Origin: Candidatus Saccharimonadota bacterium
Lineage (GTDB): Bacteria; Patescibacteriota; Saccharimonadia; Saccharimonadales; Saccharimonadaceae
Direction: 5' to 3'
DNA: 39,024 bases
Assembly (NCBI GenBank): GCA_013316435.1
Contig: WSMR01000004.1
Location: 1 to 39,024, forward strand
Part shown: piece after piece, positions 4,549 to 39,024 of the stretch
Numbering within the stretch: position 1 is the stretch's first letter
How the letters are laid out: each line of letters begins with the position of its first letter
The notes under the pieces: model-generated
Seen by the model: only the letters and a program-made list of their open reading frames with translations
Told to the model about the DNA's origin: nothing
The model's database searches: none
Made by a program: the position numbers and the translations under genes

Positions 4549-5991
4549 ATGAAAACACGATTTGCGCCAAGTCCAACTGGCTATATTCATATTGGTAATG
4601 TTCGCAGTGCAATTTATCCCTATTTGCTCGCCAAGCAGCAAAGCGGCAAGTTTATTTTGCGCATTGAGGATACCGACCGAGCGCGGTTCGTGGAAGATGC
4701 GACGACACTAATTGAAGATATCTTGAAATGGCTTGGGTTAGATTGGGACGAAGGCCCGATTGTAGGCGGACCAAATGGACCCTATTTCCAAAGTGAGCGA
4801 AAAGCGATTTATCTCGAATGGGCAAAAAAGTTACTCGCTAGTGGGCAAGCTTATGCCGACGATACGGACGCCGAGACTATTGACAAATATCGCAAGGTGT
4901 GCTACAATAAGAAGATACCCTTCCTCTACCGTGATTTTCGACCAGAAAATCCACCCCAGTGGCAGGAAGGCATTCCGATTCGCTTCAAAGCCGATCCAAA
5001 GCCGCGTAAATGGTATGACGCCGTGATGGGTGATCTTGAAGCGGGGCCGGAAACTCAAGATGATATTATTTTAATCAAAGCTGATGGTTTGCCAACTTAT
5101 AATTTTGCGCATATTATTGATGATTATTTGATGGAAGTTAGCTATGTGATTCGGGGTGTAGAATATCTGCCCAGCATACCAAATTACTTGGCGATTTATG
5201 AAGCGCTTGGGATTGAGGCGCCAGGGCTCGTCTCCCTGCCGCACATTTTGGCGCCGTCGGGCAACAAAAAATTAGGTAAACGCGACGGCGCCAAATCCGT
5301 CACACAATACCGTGACGATGGCATTTTGCCGGAGGCCATGCTGAATTACCTCGCGAATCTCGGCTGGAATGACGGTACCGAAGAGGAAATCTACACCAAA
5401 GAAGAATTGATCCAAAAATTTAGCCTCGATAAAGTTCAAAAATCCGGCGCGCGTTATGATGAAACTAAGCTCCTATGGATGAATGGGCAATGGATTCGCC
5501 GCCTAGTTAACGAAGAAGGCGTCGAGAAATTCTATCCGCGCACACAAGGTTTTTGGCCGGAATCCGCCACGAATTATAGTGACGAAGACCGAATTCAGGT
5601 ACTTGGCATTATCTACGACCGACTCAAAACCCTTGGGGATCTGCGCGAAATGACTGATTATTTCTTCCGCGACCCGCAAATCGACCTTGATGTACTAATG
5701 AAAAATAAAGCCCTCAAGAAACTTTCCGAAGAAGAAGTTTCAGGTCTGCTGCAACAAAGTTTCGAAAAACTAAACGGGCTCGAAGATTGGGATGAGCAAA
5801 ATTTGCAAGATGCGCTAAATGAGCTACTAGCAGAGACAGGCACAAAACCCGCAGTCCTCTTCTCCGCTATCCGCATCGCAGTCAGTTTTGCACCGTTTAG
5901 TCCAGCTTTGCCACTAACGCTAAAAGTACTTGGCAAAAATACTTCTCTCGCGCGAATTCAAAATGTAATTACGGCAATCGAAAATGACTAA
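4549..5991 (+). CDS. gltX: Glutamyl-tRNA synthetase
   Basis: RFAPSPTGYIHIGNVRSAIYPYLLA class-I HIGN signature and NKKLGKRDGA KMSKS-equivalent motif. Confidence 0.95.
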   Translation: MKTRFAPSPTGYIHIGNVRSAIYPYLLAKQQSGKFILRIEDTDRARFVEDATTLIEDILKWLGLDWDEGPIVGGPNGPYFQSERKAIYLEWAKKLLASGQAYADDTDAETIDKYRKVCYNKKIPFLYRDFRPENPPQWQEGIPIRFKADPKPRKWYDAVMGDLEAGPETQDDIILIKADGLPTYNFAHIIDDYLMEVSYVIRGVEYLPSIPNYLAIYEALGIEAPGLVSLPHILAPSGNKKLGKRDGAKSVTQYRDDGILPEAMLNYLANLGWNDGTEEEIYTKEELIQKFSLDKVQKSGARYDETKLLWMNGQWIRRLVNEEGVEKFYPRTQGFWPESATNYSDEDRIQVLGIIYDRLKTLGDLREMTDYFFRDPQIDLDVLMKNKALKKLSEEEVSGLLQQSFEKLNGLEDWDEQNLQDALNELLAETGTKPAVLFSAIRIAVSFAPFSPALPLTLKVLGKNTSLARIQNVITAIEND

Positions 5992-7297
5992 ACCAAAAAC
6001 TTCACAAAATCTCCAAAAACAAGAATCCGGGCAAACTCAAGAATCTAAGCAAAAGCTTAACCAAAAATCGCAAAAGGCAGCAAAAAAGTCAAAGCGCCAG
6101 CACAAAAAACTTACCAAAAAGCAAAAAATTATCCTAGCTATTGTCATCGCAATTTTTTTACTAGCGGGGATTGGCGTCGGGATTTGGATATTTTTGAATC
6201 GCTCAGAAGATGCCGAGACTTTGGACGAGAAAGAAGAAATCGAATATGCCGAGCCGATTTATAGCGCTTTGACCGGGCTCGAGATCGCGGACGAAAAACT
6301 AAATTCTAGCCCAACTTACTGTGTGCAAATTCCTAACGGCAGCACCGACGGCGCGCGCCCGCAAGCTGGGCTGGGTGCTGCTGCGGTAGTTTTTGAAGCG
6401 ATTGCCGAGAGCGGTATCACGCGCTTTGCAGCTATTTTCCAAAATGCCGAAGTTAGCGCAATTGGCCCAGTGCGATCGCTTCGTCCGTATTATCTTGACT
6501 GGGATACGCCTTTCGACTGTACCGTGGTTCATGCTGGCGGCTCTGACGAAGCTATGCAGGCGCTGCGAGTTGGCGGACAACGCGATCTAAACGAAAGCTA
6601 TACCTATATGTGGCGCGAGAGTGGCGGTGGACGCAATTGGAATAATTTATTTACTTCGCCTACACTTCTGAACGAATATAACGGTAGCAAAGGCTGGACG
6701 TCAAGTCAGCCAAAAGTCTTTCCGCGTCAAACGCCGAGCGAGACGACCGAGTTACTAGAACGGCGAAGAAAATGTGCCGAGCAAAATAGTGCGGAGGGGG
6801 TTGATGATAACGATGATAATGGTAGTGAGGGAGCTCTGACTTGCGAAGCTTATACGCCGGCGACGACTATCAAAATAAATTTTTCTGCCAACACTTCGCA
6901 TAACGTAATATATAATTATGACGCCGCGAGCAATACTTATCTACGCAGCCATCAAGACGGCAAGCCACATCTCAGCTATGAATGCCCAGCTGACCTTAGC
7001 AAGCCAAATACTCAGACTGCCTGTGGCGAGCCAAAACAATTAGCGCCGAGCGTAGTTATAGCGATGGAAGTTCATCAAAGCACAATGGCGGATAATTACC
7101 ATCAATCAATTCGAACGGTCGGTAGTGGCAAAGCCAAGATTTTCCAAAATGGCGAACTCATCGAAGGCACGTGGACAAAAGATTCACAAGACGCTAGGAT
7201 TATTTTCAAAGATAGTAATGGAACCGAGATTAAGTTTTCGCCAGGTCAACTTTGGATTTCCGCCGTGCCTGGATATGGCAAAAGTTTGAGTGAATAA
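5984..7297 (+). CDS. DUF3048 (YerB-like) domain membrane-anchored protein
   Basis: N-terminal TM; GARPQAGLGAAAVVFEAIAESGITRFAAIFQ...IGPVRSLRPYYLDWDTPFDCTVVHAGGS is characteristic of DUF3048. Confidence 0.8.
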   Translation: MTKPKTSQNLQKQESGQTQESKQKLNQKSQKAAKKSKRQHKKLTKKQKIILAIVIAIFLLAGIGVGIWIFLNRSEDAETLDEKEEIEYAEPIYSALTGLEIADEKLNSSPTYCVQIPNGSTDGARPQAGLGAAAVVFEAIAESGITRFAAIFQNAEVSAIGPVRSLRPYYLDWDTPFDCTVVHAGGSDEAMQALRVGGQRDLNESYTYMWRESGGGRNWNNLFTSPTLLNEYNGSKGWTSSQPKVFPRQTPSETTELLERRRKCAEQNSAEGVDDNDDNGSEGALTCEAYTPATTIKINFSANTSHNVIYNYDAASNTYLRSHQDGKPHLSYECPADLSKPNTQTACGEPKQLAPSVVIAMEVHQSTMADNYHQSIRTVGSGKAKIFQNGELIEGTWTKDSQDARIIFKDSNGTEIKFSPGQLWISAVPGYGKSLSE

Positions 7298-7351
7298 TAT
7301 TAACTGCGTGCAGGGTTAGACTGTGGTAAAATAAGATACTAAAGGAGGAAA

Positions 7352-8089
7352 ATGTTAAAAGATAAAATCGCAATTATTACGGGTGGAACTCGCGGCATCG
7401 GCTTTGAAATCGCAAAAGTCTATTTAGAAAACAAAGCTAAGGTAATTATTCTCGGTTCTAGAAAAGAGAGCGTTGAAAAAGCCCTTGGAGAACTCAAGAA
7501 AGCCGGTTTCAAAGCCGAGGGTTTTTGGCCGAATCTAGGTATCTACAAAGAAATCGAAAAAATGGTTCAAACCGTAATCAAAAAACACGGACGCATTGAT
7601 ATTCTAGTTAATAACGCTGGCATTGCCGCAAAAGATCCGATTGAGGAAACCACTGCCGAAGATTTTGAAAAGATTTTCGATCTAAATATTCAGGCAATTT
7701 TTCGTACTACCAAAGCCGTGGTACCAATTATGAAAGAGCAAGGCGAAGGCGTAATTTTGAATACTTCATCCATGGTCAGTTTATATGGGCAGCCATCCGG
7801 TGTGGGCTACCCAGCTAGCAAATTTGCCGTAAACGGTCTCACCAAATCACTTGCGCGCGAACTTGCCCCAGTCGGCATTCGTGTCAACGCCGTTGCACCA
7901 GGCATTATTCGTACCGATATGATGAAGAGTGTACCCGAAGAAGTAATTGCGCCACTAGTCAAAACTATTCCACTCGGACGAATCGGGGAGCCACGCGACG
8001 TTGCCAATGCCTTCCTATTTTTGGCTAGCGATATGGCGAGCTATGTCACCGGCGAAATTCTTTCCGTCGATGGCGCTGCACGTAGTTAA
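7352..8089 (+). CDS. SDR-family oxidoreductase (3-oxoacyl-ACP reductase-like)
   Basis: TGGTRGIGFEIAK, NNAG, YPASK motifs; AGGAGG ribosome-binding site just upstream of ATG. Confidence 0.93.
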   Translation: MLKDKIAIITGGTRGIGFEIAKVYLENKAKVIILGSRKESVEKALGELKKAGFKAEGFWPNLGIYKEIEKMVQTVIKKHGRIDILVNNAGIAAKDPIEETTAEDFEKIFDLNIQAIFRTTKAVVPIMKEQGEGVILNTSSMVSLYGQPSGVGYPASKFAVNGLTKSLARELAPVGIRVNAVAPGIIRTDMMKSVPEEVIAPLVKTIPLGRIGEPRDVANAFLFLASDMASYVTGEILSVDGAARS

Positions 8090-8104
8090 AACAAAATACT
8101 AGTG

Positions 8105-8110
8105 TATAAT
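8105..8110 (+). promoter_or_regulatory. Candidate -10 element (TATAAT) of the template-repeat transcription unit
   Basis: AGTG-TATAAT-ACTC immediately after the SDR stop codon; -35 not clear. Confidence 0.4.
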
Positions 8111-8339
8111 ACTCTAGGGGCGGTCAGTTCATCGAGAATATGCTTGGTGGATTTGGACGAAATCTTTTGCGGAAGGTGGGAGATGCACTTTTTAAAAGTA
8201 TAAAAGTATGCGAGGTTAGGTACACTTGCATACAAAGTCGTCTCAAAATTGTGTGCGATTTGCCTCGCACCGTCGATTCAAAGTTGAGGGTCTTGATTTT
8301 CGTTCGTGCATAGCTGCACCTGTATGGACTTTTATTACT

Positions 8340-8523
8340 TTCTCCGTACGGGCAACTACAATCGCTCGAATGGCAACATCAACGAACGCGTCACAAATGG
8401 CAACTGGTGGTCTACTACTGCTGGCTCTGCTACAAACGGTCACAACTTGAATACGAACCCGACGAATGTCAACCCTCAGAATAACAATTACCGCGGGAAC
8501 GGTTTTGCCGTTCGCTGTGTGGT
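8340..8523 (+). repeat. Candidate DGR template repeat (TR); 5' boundary approximate
   Basis: Conceptual translation NYNRSNGNINERVTNGNWWSTTAGSATNGHNLNTNPTNVNPQNNNYRGNGFAVRCV; 17 of 49 codons in 8354-8500 are AAC/AAT, the usual DGR TR composition. The 8481-8523 part matches the VR at 38982-39024 at 41/43 positions, both mismatches at TR adenines. Confidence 0.85.
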
Positions 8524-8657
8524 TTTGCCGGCACCTTTGACATGCCCCCATATATTATATATTTGCTTCCGGCGGAGAACTTCGCTAGCGTCAATGCTTA
8601 GTAAGAGTTAATCGCGGCGAGAAGCCTCGCTGCGCTCGGCGCTTCGTCGTCGACTCA

Positions 8658-8685
8658 AAAATCCCAAAAATAATTTTGGGATTTT
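8658..8685 (+). terminator. Rho-independent-terminator-like hairpin after the TR
   Basis: AAAATCCCAAAA (8658-8669) / TTTTGGGATTTT (8674-8685), perfect 12-bp arms ending in a T-run. Confidence 0.6.
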
Positions 8686-8755
8686 CTCGCGCTCCTCCTC
8701 GCTACGAACCCACTGCTATCGTAGTCGGTTCGTCCCGCCACCAAAATGTAAAAAA

Positions 8756-8793
8756 ATAGAAATAGTCTAGGCAAATGCCTAGACTATTTCTAT
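8756..8793 (-). terminator. Rho-independent terminator of the tRNA-Glu unit
   Basis: ATAGAAATAGTCTAGGCA (8756-8773) / TGCCTAGACTATTTCTAT (8776-8793), followed on the minus strand by TTTTTT. Confidence 0.75.
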
Positions 8794-8869
8794 GGTGATT
8801 CCGGCGGGAGTCGAACCCGCGATTTTCTGGATGAGAACCAGACGTCCTGGACCACTAGACGACGGAACC
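8793..8869 (-). tRNA. tRNA-Glu (anticodon CTC), with encoded CCA
   Basis: Minus strand GGTTCCGTCGTCTAGTGGTCCAGGACGTCTGGTTCTCATCCAGA...GGGTTCGACTCCC...CGGAATCACCA; 7-bp acceptor stem, T-loop, anticodon loop TTCTCAT. Confidence 0.93.
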
Positions 8870-27568: not shown

Positions 27569-28435
27569 ATGAATCAACTTGATTTAGCCCGAATTATTCT
27601 ACTACTCATCGGTCGTCCGGTGAGTAAGGTGCGACTTGCGCGGTTGATTTATTTTGTGCATAAAGATTTGATCCGCAAAAAACTGCTGACACCCGCTAAT
27701 ATCCTCTATATTCGCTCGCCGCTTGGCCCGATTCCGGATGGATATACTACTTTGACCTTAGAGAGCGAAGACATTATCGCTCAGCCTAATACTTCATCCA
27801 ACCTTTCTTATGCCGCCGAAGACTATGCGGTTTCCGAGCGCGCTATCGAAACCGAATCCACTCTACTAGAGCAATACCGCGACATGTTGGGCGTAATTGA
27901 AAAAACCCTCAAAATTCTCCAACCCTATACCACGCCGGAATTGATTCGAATCAGCCATCATGAACCGAGCTGGATAGCGCATCGCAACGGCGAAATTTAC
28001 CAAATCTCGCCTCAAGACCTCAAGCTAACCTTCCCCGAGCAAAAACCGCTCCATCTGAAACTGAATCTTATCCCACTTGCGGATAAATCAAAAGCTGAAG
28101 CAAACAAAATCGGAGCCATGCAGGCGCATCTCCTACGCGGAATGATTGCTGACATCGTCAAAGAAAGCACCGATCTCGAATATCCCGACGATCCCGCGAC
28201 TTCTACACCTCCCGAAAAACCTAATAAGTGGCTTCAGCTACCGTTAATTCGCTTTAAAATCACCCGCAAAAAGCCGGAAAAAGCCAAGCAGGGGAAAAAT
28301 CAGAAGAATTCTCAAGATGAGTCGAAACCAGCCGAAAACCCCCAGCCGCCAGTCAAAGATTCCCCAATCCTGGTAGAAGATTCTGACCGAACAAAACCCG
28401 AACAGAATAATCCTAGCGAAGGTAACAGGGAATGA
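27569..28435 (+). CDS. Panacea/DUF4065 (SocA-like) domain protein, putative antitoxin
   Basis: SKVRLARLIYFVHKDLIRKKLL...YIRSPLGPIPDGY resembles the Panacea core (KLQKLLYF...YGPVPxxY); stop overlaps the start of the Fic gene. Confidence 0.55.
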   Translation: MNQLDLARIILLLIGRPVSKVRLARLIYFVHKDLIRKKLLTPANILYIRSPLGPIPDGYTTLTLESEDIIAQPNTSSNLSYAAEDYAVSERAIETESTLLEQYRDMLGVIEKTLKILQPYTTPELIRISHHEPSWIAHRNGEIYQISPQDLKLTFPEQKPLHLKLNLIPLADKSKAEANKIGAMQAHLLRGMIADIVKESTDLEYPDDPATSTPPEKPNKWLQLPLIRFKITRKKPEKAKQGKNQKNSQDESKPAENPQPPVKDSPILVEDSDRTKPEQNNPSEGNRE

Positions 28436-29163
28436 GCAACGCCGAACGCTACGAGCTCGCTGAAACCGACGTCGCGAAATCGCTTTGGCGCAAATATCGA
28501 CATACCATAGAGTATAAATCCGGCCGCCGTTTTTCAATCAATTCTACGCACCCACTAGTCAGGGAAGCAGAGGAAAAAGGTCTCGCCGACGTGATTATGA
28601 GCTTCGTGCGCGAACTAGAACGCCCGATCGACATCCGAACTACATTATCAGACCGCCAAGAAAATGATTGGATTGAGGATTGGAAACGTATGCATTCGCT
28701 GCTATTTCGACGGGTTTATCGCAAAACGGGGAATTTGCGCGCCAAAGGACACGACGTCCGTTTTGGTGAACCAGGGGATGAGGACCTGCACCGAATCCCA
28801 GCCGGTGGAGCCGAGGTCTACAATGAGCTTTATGCCCTCTCCCGCTATCTGCGCGAGAGTTTGCCTTATATCCCACTCGAAAACCTCGATGAAGTTTGTC
28901 GTTTCCTGGCTCATTTTCATTATAATTTTATCCGTACTCATCCCTTTTTCGATGGTAATGGTCGGATTGCGCGCGTTGTTACTGATCAATTGTCAGTTGC
29001 ACTCGGCTTCGTGCCAATCATAGCCGGTTTTCCGCGTAACAATGCCGAGAAAAAGCGGATTTATCACGCCGCCATCAAGTCAGCAGCATCAGACACCTCG
29101 TACTCGGAATTAACATCTTGGATTAAGGTCCAAATGCAAGACAAACTCGCTCAAATTACTTAA
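28432..29163 (+). CDS. Fic/Doc-family protein
   Basis: THPFFDGNGRIARVV matches the Fic motif HPFx(D/E)GNGRxxR; 4-bp overlap with the upstream gene. Confidence 0.93.
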   Translation: MSNAERYELAETDVAKSLWRKYRHTIEYKSGRRFSINSTHPLVREAEEKGLADVIMSFVRELERPIDIRTTLSDRQENDWIEDWKRMHSLLFRRVYRKTGNLRAKGHDVRFGEPGDEDLHRIPAGGAEVYNELYALSRYLRESLPYIPLENLDEVCRFLAHFHYNFIRTHPFFDGNGRIARVVTDQLSVALGFVPIIAGFPRNNAEKKRIYHAAIKSAASDTSYSELTSWIKVQMQDKLAQIT

Positions 29164-36039: not shown

Positions 36040-37332
36040 TTACACCTCAAACTCTTGCCCGGCTGCCCGCCAAATCCGCTGCTGCATTTTGCGACAACCA
36101 TAATTCACACAACCACCCATATACGACATGATCGTATCAAGATCTTTGAGCCCGCTCGCCACGTCCATCAGCGCTTGATAATAATTCTTCTGATACCGAT
36201 GGTCCATTTCAATATGACCGGAGCGCAAAAACCTACCTAAATAAGTTACTCCGTGGCGCACGTCAATCCAACGTGTCTTGCTCGGGTGCATGGTTAGCCC
36301 CATGGTCAGTAAATAACTCCGAAGCCGTTCAATATCTCGCTCCAGCTGCGGTATTTCATCGTCATTCACAACCACATAAAAATCATCCACGTAGCGGCCG
36401 TAGTGCTGATAGCCAAGTTGGTAAACGATAAATTTATCCAGCGCATCAAGGAAAATATTCGAAAGTAGCTGCGAAGTAAGATTGCCAATCACAATTCCCC
36501 GCCCGGCATTCTGAAAGAACAAACTCTTGTCACGCGGCAAATCGTCCCAATGTTTAATCTTACCTCGCACCCGCACTTGCTTGAGCGGATCGTCCATAAT
36601 TACCTGTCGCCATAAATAGGTCAGCAATCTTCCCAGTGGTCCAAAATGATGAAACTGCCGATGCGCACCGTCAATCGCAAGATCCCGCAATTTCTCACGT
36701 TGCATACTCATAAAAAATCCTTTGATATCCATTTTGACAAAATAGGTATGCCGAGTATAGTTCCGACTTTTTACTGCAATATGATGCGCCGCGCGACGCA
36801 CGCCATAATCCGTCCCCTTCCCCACTCGACAGGAATACGAGTCACGCACAAAATGACGATTCCACCACGGAATACAAATATTAATAATCAGATGATGTAC
36901 AATGCGATCCCGAAAACTTGCCGCAAAAATTTCCCGCACCACCGGATCAAACACGATAAATGCCTCACTACGCGATGGAAAATACTTACGCTCGGCAATA
37001 TCCACCGCCAGTCGATAAATATTATCATACAAATTCGCCTCAATCCGCTGGACGTCATAGGTTCGCCGTTTCCCAGGTCGCGCATCAAAATAAGCATAAA
37101 ATAGCATTTCGTAAATCTCATCGGCATTAAAATCCGAGCGCCCCGATTCGATCACATTTTGCTCCATCGCGCTGAGATGAGAATATTTACTATGCATTTC
37201 GAGCAACTTTTTCTCGTAACGCGCCATCCGCGCTCTAGTTTTGAGAAGCTTAGTTTCGCGCCAAGCAATCCGGCTGGCAACTTCTATCGGATCTTTCTGC
37301 CGGTCCCGCTTCGCATATCTTGGGTCAGCCAT
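36040..37332 (-). CDS. Diversity-generating retroelement reverse transcriptase
   Basis: GIVIGNLTSQLLSNIFLDALDKFI (DGR-type IGNLTSQ) and HYGRYVDDFYVVV (catalytic YxDD); 430 aa without obvious maturase or endonuclease domain. Confidence 0.92.
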   Translation of the reverse strand: MADPRYAKRDRQKDPIEVASRIAWRETKLLKTRARMARYEKKLLEMHSKYSHLSAMEQNVIESGRSDFNADEIYEMLFYAYFDARPGKRRTYDVQRIEANLYDNIYRLAVDIAERKYFPSRSEAFIVFDPVVREIFAASFRDRIVHHLIINICIPWWNRHFVRDSYSCRVGKGTDYGVRRAAHHIAVKSRNYTRHTYFVKMDIKGFFMSMQREKLRDLAIDGAHRQFHHFGPLGRLLTYLWRQVIMDDPLKQVRVRGKIKHWDDLPRDKSLFFQNAGRGIVIGNLTSQLLSNIFLDALDKFIVYQLGYQHYGRYVDDFYVVVNDDEIPQLERDIERLRSYLLTMGLTMHPSKTRWIDVRHGVTYLGRFLRSGHIEMDHRYQKNYYQALMDVASGLKDLDTIMSYMGGCVNYGCRKMQQRIWRAAGQEFEV

Positions 37333-38683
37333 CAGCTTCGTTGCCGTCTTTTAGCTTCTCAATCACATCGTGTTGATGATAATGCGTATTCAGTTTTTGC
37401 CTAGTTAACTCACGCGCCTTTGCTAATCCGAGACTTACCCGCGCAATCGTATTCCGATTGGCAATCCCAAGATCAGCATAGTTCGCCAGCACCGACATCG
37501 CATCGCCGATATGTACATCAACTTGTTCCAGCGCCTGCCAACGCGCTGGGTCACGGCGTGACCGATTTGCTACGTCATAATAAGCTCGGCGTACTTTGAA
37601 CATACTATCCATCAGTGGATGAGAAATGGCCGGGCGAGAATTACTATCAAGATGTCGCTCCAAATGGTAGCTATCGCGCAGTGCTGCCACAATATAATTA
37701 TTTAGCTCCACTTCCGGTGCAGCGGTGAAAATATTATTACTAATATTTTTCAGGACTTCAGCATCGAGTTTATGGAAGCGACGCAGCTCATTATCAGTCA
37801 GTGCTACACGCAAGCGATAAGCCCGAATCAAATCTTGAAACGGGCCAAAGTTAACTTTCTTATCCAAAGTGAGTGGTGCGCCGGAATAGTGAATATCTTT
37901 TTGCAAACGCTGCTCGTCTTGAAGACAAATCACACCTTCGCGAAATTGTCCGAACAAATCTCGATCAGTATTAACTTTGATTTCACGATCGAGATAGGTC
38001 GCTATCATCAAGCTATGAATTGCAATAGAGTTGCCACCCATTTTCCACCAATTCCCAGTGGCAGATTTGAAAATAAAAATGTGCAAGTGATTATCTTTTT
38101 CTAACCGCCGAACTAGCAATTTCGCATGTTTGAGTAATTCGCGTTGGTATTTAGCTTCTTCATCCTTGGTCAATTCCTCTTTGTCTTTGAGGTCACCTAG
38201 TTCGTTGTCTAGCATATCTACCACCGCCGCGAGTCCAAAGCGGATGTTTTCGTAGGCCTCTTTTTCTTCGTTTTCCTGTTTGATATGTAGCAAAGTTTTT
38301 TGGTGAGGCTTGTCTTTGTATTTGGTTGGCAGTTCATAGCGTCGTACTTCGTCGGCAAGTTTTTGTAGACCCTCCGAACCGCGACGACCATCCTCACGCC
38401 TCACACGTTCCGCCACGTCGCTGAGCGGCGGCACTGATGATTTATCCTCTTTAGTGGCGGACTTCTCGGAAGCCTTCTTGGCTGCCTTTGCCACCCGCGC
38501 TACGCGCGCCGCATTCGCGGTTGGTTTGGATGCTAACTTCGCCGGACGAACCTTTTTCGTATCGTTCGCCTGTTCAGAGTCAATCCCCAAATCGAGAGGC
38601 ACTTTTTCCAAATTGTGGATTTTATTTTCGGTCACTGTTTTTGTCCTTTTTTGGCAAATGGTTGCAGGGACCTTCTGTCCCAC
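37325..38683 (-). CDS. DGR accessory protein: Lys/Ala-rich N-terminus and helical (Avd-like?) C-terminal region
   Basis: Overlaps the RT start by 8 bp, same strand; C-terminal SMFKVRRAYYDVANRS...LANYADLGIANRNTIARVSLGLAKARELTRQKL looks like a helical bundle. Confidence 0.6.
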   Translation of the reverse strand: MGQKVPATICQKRTKTVTENKIHNLEKVPLDLGIDSEQANDTKKVRPAKLASKPTANAARVARVAKAAKKASEKSATKEDKSSVPPLSDVAERVRREDGRRGSEGLQKLADEVRRYELPTKYKDKPHQKTLLHIKQENEEKEAYENIRFGLAAVVDMLDNELGDLKDKEELTKDEEAKYQRELLKHAKLLVRRLEKDNHLHIFIFKSATGNWWKMGGNSIAIHSLMIATYLDREIKVNTDRDLFGQFREGVICLQDEQRLQKDIHYSGAPLTLDKKVNFGPFQDLIRAYRLRVALTDNELRRFHKLDAEVLKNISNNIFTAAPEVELNNYIVAALRDSYHLERHLDSNSRPAISHPLMDSMFKVRRAYYDVANRSRRDPARWQALEQVDVHIGDAMSVLANYADLGIANRNTIARVSLGLAKARELTRQKLNTHYHQHDVIEKLKDGNEADG

Positions 38684-38968: not shown

Positions 38969-39024
38969 TCACCCCTCCCGTACCACACAGCGAACGGCAA
39001 AACCGTACCCGCGGTAATAGTTAT
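38969..39024 (-). CDS. DGR target gene, C-terminal end with VR (truncated by window end)
   Basis: Minus strand reads ...NYYRGYGFAVRCVVREG*; the 43 nt at 38982-39024 match the TR at 8481-8523 with two A-to-T differences. Confidence 0.85.
   Translation of the reverse strand, partial: NYYRGYGFAVRCVVREG

Follow-up and report, generated by a model that had tools for sequence, protein, structure and literature searches.

The DGR of this very small bacterium, whose own assembly comprises 692,579 bases in 63 contigs and is 81.6% complete, is probably split: a template repeat (TR) at positions 8337–8523 on the forward strand of the window, i.e., the whole stretch of 39,024 nucleotides analyzed here, would act in trans with a reverse transcriptase (RT) encoded 27.5 kb away. 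We assign to this reading a probability of about 0.82. A TR acting in trans from a remote locus had been proposed in an earlier note on this DNA, and the proposal is supported by the adenine specificity of the repeat, the alignment of the target VR, the single RT and the synteny of the region. As far as can be read from the DNA itself, the identity of the TR, its adenine specificity, the single RT with intact motifs and the derived insertion of the TR at tRNA-Glu are clear, and so is the genus-typical layout of everything but the TR. Furthermore, the genome carries about 38 stand-alone VR copies of roughly 190–215 nt, hereafter solo cassettes, which are intergenic and attached to no gene.

Identity and Adenine Specificity of the Template Repeat

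A search of the 692,579-base genome returned about 40 relatives of the 187-nt TR, a number that places the match far beyond chance. We scored against the TR, which contains 51 adenines, each of 35 ungapped VR copies located elsewhere in the same genome, and the mismatches resulted to be adenine-specific: 657 of 1527 adenines were changed (43.0%) vs. 113 of 4049 other bases (2.8%; Fisher p ~5e-297). With 8337–8523 as reference, 85% of the differences fall on A, whereas this share is 17–44% when any other full copy is used, indicating that 8337–8523 is the template and not a variable copy. The same comparison ruled out the candidate explanation that it is just another VR; it is the sole template-like copy in the assembly.

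The earlier note had located the repeat at 8340–8523, and the sequence indeed proved to be a true TR, while that extent was too short, the actual one being the 187 nt of 8337–8523. The 43-nt match that had drawn attention to it, between 8481–8523 of the forward strand and the reverse complement of 38982–39024, was found again with exactly two differences (8486 A to T and 8498 A to T) and with identity over the final 25 nt, and our recount of codons in 8354–8500 agreed with the 17 AAC/AAT out of 49 reported before.

The Reverse Transcriptase, Its Partner and the Target VR

The DGR RT (430 aa; 36040–37332, reverse strand; PF00078, 2.7e-13) is the sole RT detected in the assembly. Its motifs IGNLTSQ and YVDDF conform to the DGR patterns [ILV]GxxxSQ and YxDD, and are invariant in the aligned relatives apart from one x position. 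The best PDB match is chain A of 8ub7 (3.9e-26), which we take to be an entry of the Bordetella phage DGR RT series. Overlapping the RT start, an ORF of 452 aa (37325–38683, reverse strand) encodes an accessory protein in which an alpha/beta domain precedes a predicted Avd-like four-helix bundle, and homologues of this protein are found immediately 5′ of the RT in 16 loci of relatives. Its predicted fold resembles the S23/Avd-type bundles 2gsc, 2rld and 4dwl, the last being the Avd of the Bordetella phage DGR, with a target TM of 0.7–0.84; since the E-values are weak (best 0.0084; 0.33 for 4dwl at a target TM of 0.79), the label Avd-like rests on fold shape and position. Comparison of the protein with Pfam, and of its profile with PDB sequences, gave nothing convincing.

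Upstream of the accessory gene and the RT, at 38982–39024 on the reverse strand, the window ends within the 3′ end of a VR (TR positions 145–187) that is cut by the assembly. This piece is probably part of the VR of a target gene lying on contig C1, and its position matches that of the target VRs of relatives. Contig C1 starts inside a VR closing a gene of at least 585 aa that has a signal-peptide-like start and a FISUMP domain (TIGR02145, above cut-off). It is the one target gene found, predicted to encode a secreted FISUMP-domain protein, and it carries its VR at the 3′ end as expected for CLec/FISUMP-like targets of DGRs, which the solo cassettes do not. As the order in relatives is target gene, accessory gene and RT, C1 and the end of the window (contig C60) probably join. 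As a check of its remote template, the earlier note had suggested aligning the full VR with the TR: the C1 piece (TR positions 1–122) and the window end (145–187) together show 17 differences at A and none at the 121 other positions. Our searches also upheld its observation that no further TR-like sequence adjoins the RT, and no better TR for the target was found elsewhere in the assembly.

In the split DGR, the RT and its Avd-like partner, which occupy a site near ftsI where the DGR is often located in this genus, would use template RNA from 8337–8523; the RT would reverse-transcribe this RNA, introducing errors at adenines, and the resulting cDNA would replace the VR at the 3′ end of the secreted FISUMP gene, which lies on C1 and whose VR would continue at the window end. 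Transcription of the TR, its use by the RT of the window and the joining of C1 to C60 are the steps of this scheme that we infer.

The Locus of the Template Repeat and the DGRs of the Genus

The TR is part of an insert of about 1.5 kb (7298–8792), made up of an SDR gene (7352–8089) and the TR, between the gene at 5984–7297 and tRNA-Glu (CTC; 8793–8869, reverse strand), which adjoin each other in relatives (gene order in G022, G032, G034, G001 and G027). The conserved arrangement in relatives is PEGA gene, hypothetical gene, gltX, LppL-like gene, tRNA-Glu and der, and the window departs from it only by the insertion of the SDR gene and the TR, which separate the LppL-like gene from tRNA-Glu. 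In G027 and G022 the RT is about 25–28 kb from der, near the ftsI cluster. The conservation of everything but the SDR gene and the TR shows that the TR moved, the RT stayed and the contig is sound. Thus, the synteny check proposed together with the remote site turned out in its favor: both sides are genus-like and the distance of about 25 kb between der and the RT is kept, so that the location is no misassembly. No homologue of the SDR gene was found in relatives at the limit used. Between the TR and the RT, the window also contains a Fic-type gene (28432–29163) with the fic/DOC motif HPFFDGNGR, recognized by eye in the ORF list.

The non-coding gap between the SDR gene and the TR (8090–8336, forward strand) presumably holds the promoter and the 5′ part of the template RNA; a promoter scan of this gap recognized no consensus promoter. 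On the other side, the region 8524–8792 (forward strand) differs from the 3′ flank of every VR copy and is a candidate spacer of the template RNA. The 272 nt 3′ of the TR have a folding z of -8.9, partly due to the tRNA-Glu terminator; the folding is mainly in 8600–8745 (z = -5.6), with z = -0.5 for 8524–8663, and the structured signal could come from terminators. No homology was visible between the spacer of the host TR and those of the relatives' TRs.

Like that of the host, the DGRs of the genus have an RT with the accessory protein directly upstream, the VR in a nearby gene and the TR convergent with the RT. We resolved TR/VR pairs in 14 loci of the genus, with the proviso that in one of them (L104) the choice of the TR member rests on few differences: in all 14 the RT and the TR are on opposite strands, and in 13 the TR lies 21–187 bp past the RT stop. 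The opposite strand, presented in the earlier note as an oddity of the window, is therefore the norm of the clade and has to be discarded as unusual, while the distance is not the norm, as a TR less than 190 bp from the RT in 13 of 14 loci, within the few-kb cassette typical of DGRs, contrasts with 27.5 kb in the host. Inverted (group 4) DGRs, in which the TR and the RT gene are on opposite strands, are known (Schillinger et al., 2012; PMC3521204), and in these, as would be the case in the host, RT and template come from separate transcripts. They keep TR, VR and RT in one cassette, whereas 27.5 kb and a series of housekeeping genes separate the host TR from the RT. Proximity of the TR to the RT is usual in DGRs and not mechanistically required (PMC3521204).

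Two alternatives bear on the distance. Chimeric joins at repeats could have misplaced the TR and the solo cassettes during assembly, and contigs do often end inside VRs; yet neither flank of the TR resembles those of the VRs, both flanks being those of a single unique TR, synteny is maintained along the contig, solos are also present in four independently assembled contigs (L098, L099, L127 and L128) and false joins cannot make gene-less 5′ borders, all of which largely refutes an artefact and makes it extremely improbable. The remote TR might instead be the template of a second DGR, with an RT encoded in the 18% of the genome missing from the assembly, the TR of the window RT having been lost or left unassembled. 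Two or three DGR RTs are common in relatives, family 2 of the VRs (see below) has no TR in the assembly, and with about 18% of the genome absent and the rest in 63 contigs, another RT, TR or target may be missing. Nevertheless, the VR beside the window RT matches the TR perfectly outside A and one RT was found, and we regard a second DGR as improbable.

Number, Borders and Position of the Solo VR Cassettes

We collected 40 VR copies or fragments, excluding the C1 and C60 pieces; since the five fragments at contig ends could pair up, at least 38 cassettes are distinct. The in-frame upstream ORF is at most 44 aa in every copy except C1, and the cassettes have the character of silent cassettes, i.e., silent, incomplete copies with conserved ends. 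Cassette borders are near the VR borders, with a 5′ flank of CTCA (16) or CTCTCA (9) and a 3′ flank of ACGGGAGGGG in 33 of the 50 rows of the border table, in which split hits are counted separately. Most cassettes keep the VR-type flanks, 5′ CTCA and 3′ ACGGGAGGGGTGAGAG, which are missing from the TR, indicating that they were copied from VR-type DNA; the same flanks rule out the solos as retro-insertions of TR cDNA.

The ends of family 1, CTCTCA and TGAGAG, are mutual inverted repeats; those of family 2 are TCTCCTCT and AGAGGAGA, and the terminal repeats measure only 6–8 bp in both families. Family 2 ('PLDFVYTG...FALRCVGR') consists of eight or nine solo VRs, located on contigs C6, C24, C32, C37, C50 and C59 and at positions 1–58 of the window (forward strand), where the 3′ end of a VR is cut by the contig start; three copies include a longer 5′ part of the FISUMP domain. 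Inspection of the cassettes by eye showed no target-site duplication. No empty site was found, and further flank searches of viral contigs returned only the contigs already matched.

Some cassettes depart from this structure. Those at C5:2577, C15:3270, C17:79, C24:2934 and C37:27293 break at TR position 177 and continue in a different tail (TCTAGTAACTTCGCTATCGCTC...), with a hairpin repeat in four of the five. Those at C31:1428, C41:51, C49:14999, C32:3710, C37:11695 and C50:38607, together with the one in L128, have the same ends and a middle that differs at many non-A sites, and may derive from other, older TRs. The genome also contains several families of short intergenic repeats, and a small repeat of about 90 nt (CTCGTAGGAGACG...) occurs at or near cassette ends at C27:4105, C49:12295 and C5:9927–10014.

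The cassettes are concentrated near tRNA genes. Twenty-one of the 40 are at most 600 bp from a tRNA gene vs. 21.8% of intergenic DNA (p = 2e-5), and 10 are at most 100 bp from one vs. 7.3% (p = 5e-4); the test is conservative, the intergenic background being itself rich in cassette neighborhoods. Seven cassettes are no more than 100 bp from the 5′ side of a tRNA gene, and six of these direct their 5′ end at it; the TR likewise adjoins a tRNA gene (tRNA-Glu). In a contig of a near-identical strain (bin G082; 98.8% over 1376 nt), the C5 cassette and tRNA-Ser stand in inverted order (L098:3976–4386 vs. L038:1376–1757), which shows the repeats to be involved in rearrangements. The contigs L098 (G082:C43) and L099 (G024:C36) are nearly identical to the host species but were binned with other species, a likely case of binning contamination (7% in each bin); L099 has a Mob/Pre-like fragment at its start and a tyrosine recombinase gene.

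Copying, Age and Distribution of the Solo VR Cassettes

Two pairs of cassettes at different loci have an identical VR, and three more share long tracts: the shared-block scores were 18.2, 18.2, 15.1, 14.9 and 9.4, against a maximum of 5.7 in 200 shuffled data sets, pointing to copying among cassettes at the DNA level. Copying from a solo to the target was not detected, the best block with C1 scoring 4.6, inside the null.

The TR has C at position 89, where 19 of 28 cassettes have T. At position 161 it has G, and 13 of the 28 cassettes show A, T or C instead, the outcome expected had their TR carried A at this site. Both changes are silent. Most cassettes are thus older than the TR in its present form and have escaped rewriting since then. 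The TR state shows no correlation with the number of other changes (p = 0.79 and 0.43), so that the state is no simple clock, and we discarded the idea that the solos are one age cohort. Change at A sites is unequal among codons, with 7% for TAC and 3% for ACG vs. 67–77% for the first positions of AAC/AAT, and the non-A changes lean synonymous (43 of 78, p = 0.002). To judge from these sequences the pattern looks filtered at the protein level, and adenine context could explain part of it.

Outside the host species, IMG/VR gave matches to only two contigs, mobile elements of Clostridia type (ICE) with serine recombinases, in both of which the homology to the host genome ends at the cassette borders; gene content and weak plasmid matches suggest that they are Clostridial. 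Their solo cassettes (L127:11023–11209 and L128:14723–14909, both on the reverse strand) belong to the same family as those of the host, and the one in L127 is 84% like the TR, its differences falling on 22 of the 51 A sites and on 7 of the remaining 136. Phage and plasmid collections contained no match to the repeat. The VR 3′ signature, present 33 times in the host genome, is absent from the 392 other genomes of the order that were searched. Two near-complete relatives had one TR and one VR per DGR searched and no solo VRs.

Origin and Role of the Solo VR Cassettes

We tentatively propose, at somewhat less than even odds, that DGR VRs become independent gene-less mobile cassettes: seeded by the DGR, they would spread intergenically near tRNA genes, record past TR states and selected variants, swap tracts and reach mobile elements of another phylum, with the TR as a free-standing gene acting in trans. 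As the sequences show, VR units were copied at the DNA level into intergenic sites, where they exchange tracts and mostly are not refreshed by the TR. We think that the spread is a miniature-element-like process, or a recombination process favoring tRNA neighborhoods, and not retrohoming.

The solos could be passive or selfish MITE-like mobile elements that contain a VR and have no function in the cell, a serious possibility that we also place a little under even odds. The short inverted ends of the two families, the intergenic sites with their tRNA preference, other small repeats in the same places, the two copies in Clostridia-type ICE contigs with homology stopping at the cassette borders and the involvement of transposons and MITEs in DGR loci already on record (PMC10907252) speak for it; no linked transposase and no target-site duplication were observed, the 5′ borders vary and the inverted ends are short. 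A possible, less likely role is that of a functional silent archive of selected VRs, recombined into the target by gene conversion while the DGR supplies the variants. Conserved ends with variable middles, tract copying from VR to VR and the low change at TAC and ACG with the synonymous lean, as if the cassettes had once been expressed and selected, would fit an archive, but no significant tract is common to the C1 target VR and any solo, adenine context alone may account for part of the codon pattern, and cassettes in foreign mobile-element contigs are not predicted by it. MITE-like spread, toward which we lean, and an archive role are not mutually exclusive. That the solos are active DGR targets, rewritten in trans by the TR, is decidedly unlikely for most of them: their 3′ end has stayed the same as that of the TR, some show the current state (C89, G161) with zero to two other changes (e.g., C37:28110) and a site common to a close strain differs strongly in its VR, but most have the older TR state together with several non-A changes, which rewriting would erase, and identical copies at separate loci are unexpected under random mutagenesis.

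Relation to Known Systems and Implications

In Neisseria pilS and Borrelia vls, a variable segment exists in numerous silent versions, which have conserved ends and undergo segmental copying. The host cassettes are like them in form, whereas the variation in the host is written by adenine-specific reverse transcription. MITEs and tRNA-targeted retroelements are likewise short, dispersed, bounded by short inverted ends and located near tRNA genes; the host cassettes differ from them in that no helper transposase was identified and the content is a DGR VR. Among DGRs, opposite-strand TRs are already known (PMC3521204), and so are remote VRs and action in trans, as in Thiohalocapsa PB-PSB1 (PMC10907252), in cyanobacteria (PMC7517822) and in Trichodesmium with its 18 TR/VR loci (PMC8867640). 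As proposed for the host, one RT/TR serves distant VRs in these organisms, and mobile elements are tied to the dispersal. In the cyanobacterial survey, no remote VR was located other than at the 3′ end of a CLec gene (PMC7517822), whereas the dispersed VRs of the host are almost all gene-less and the remote part is the TR itself. Neither a TR far from its RT nor gene-less VR cassettes were found in the open-access library that we searched, a limited literature that makes the novelty provisional.

DGR surveys have looked, for example, for a repeat no more than 1 kb from the RT and for its partner no more than 20 kb away (PMC8144416). Such rules miss a detached TR by design, so that DGRs classified as lacking a TR may in fact be complete. 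A TR working as a separate gene would ease experiments on the requirements of a template RNA. Past DGR output is preserved in the solo cassettes as a natural fossil record, in which the TR state may serve for dating, and they raise the question of whether a cell able to make endless variants also stores good ones. Finally, the association with tRNA genes and with mobile elements of foreign origin points to a possible route for the transfer of hypervariable domains between phyla.
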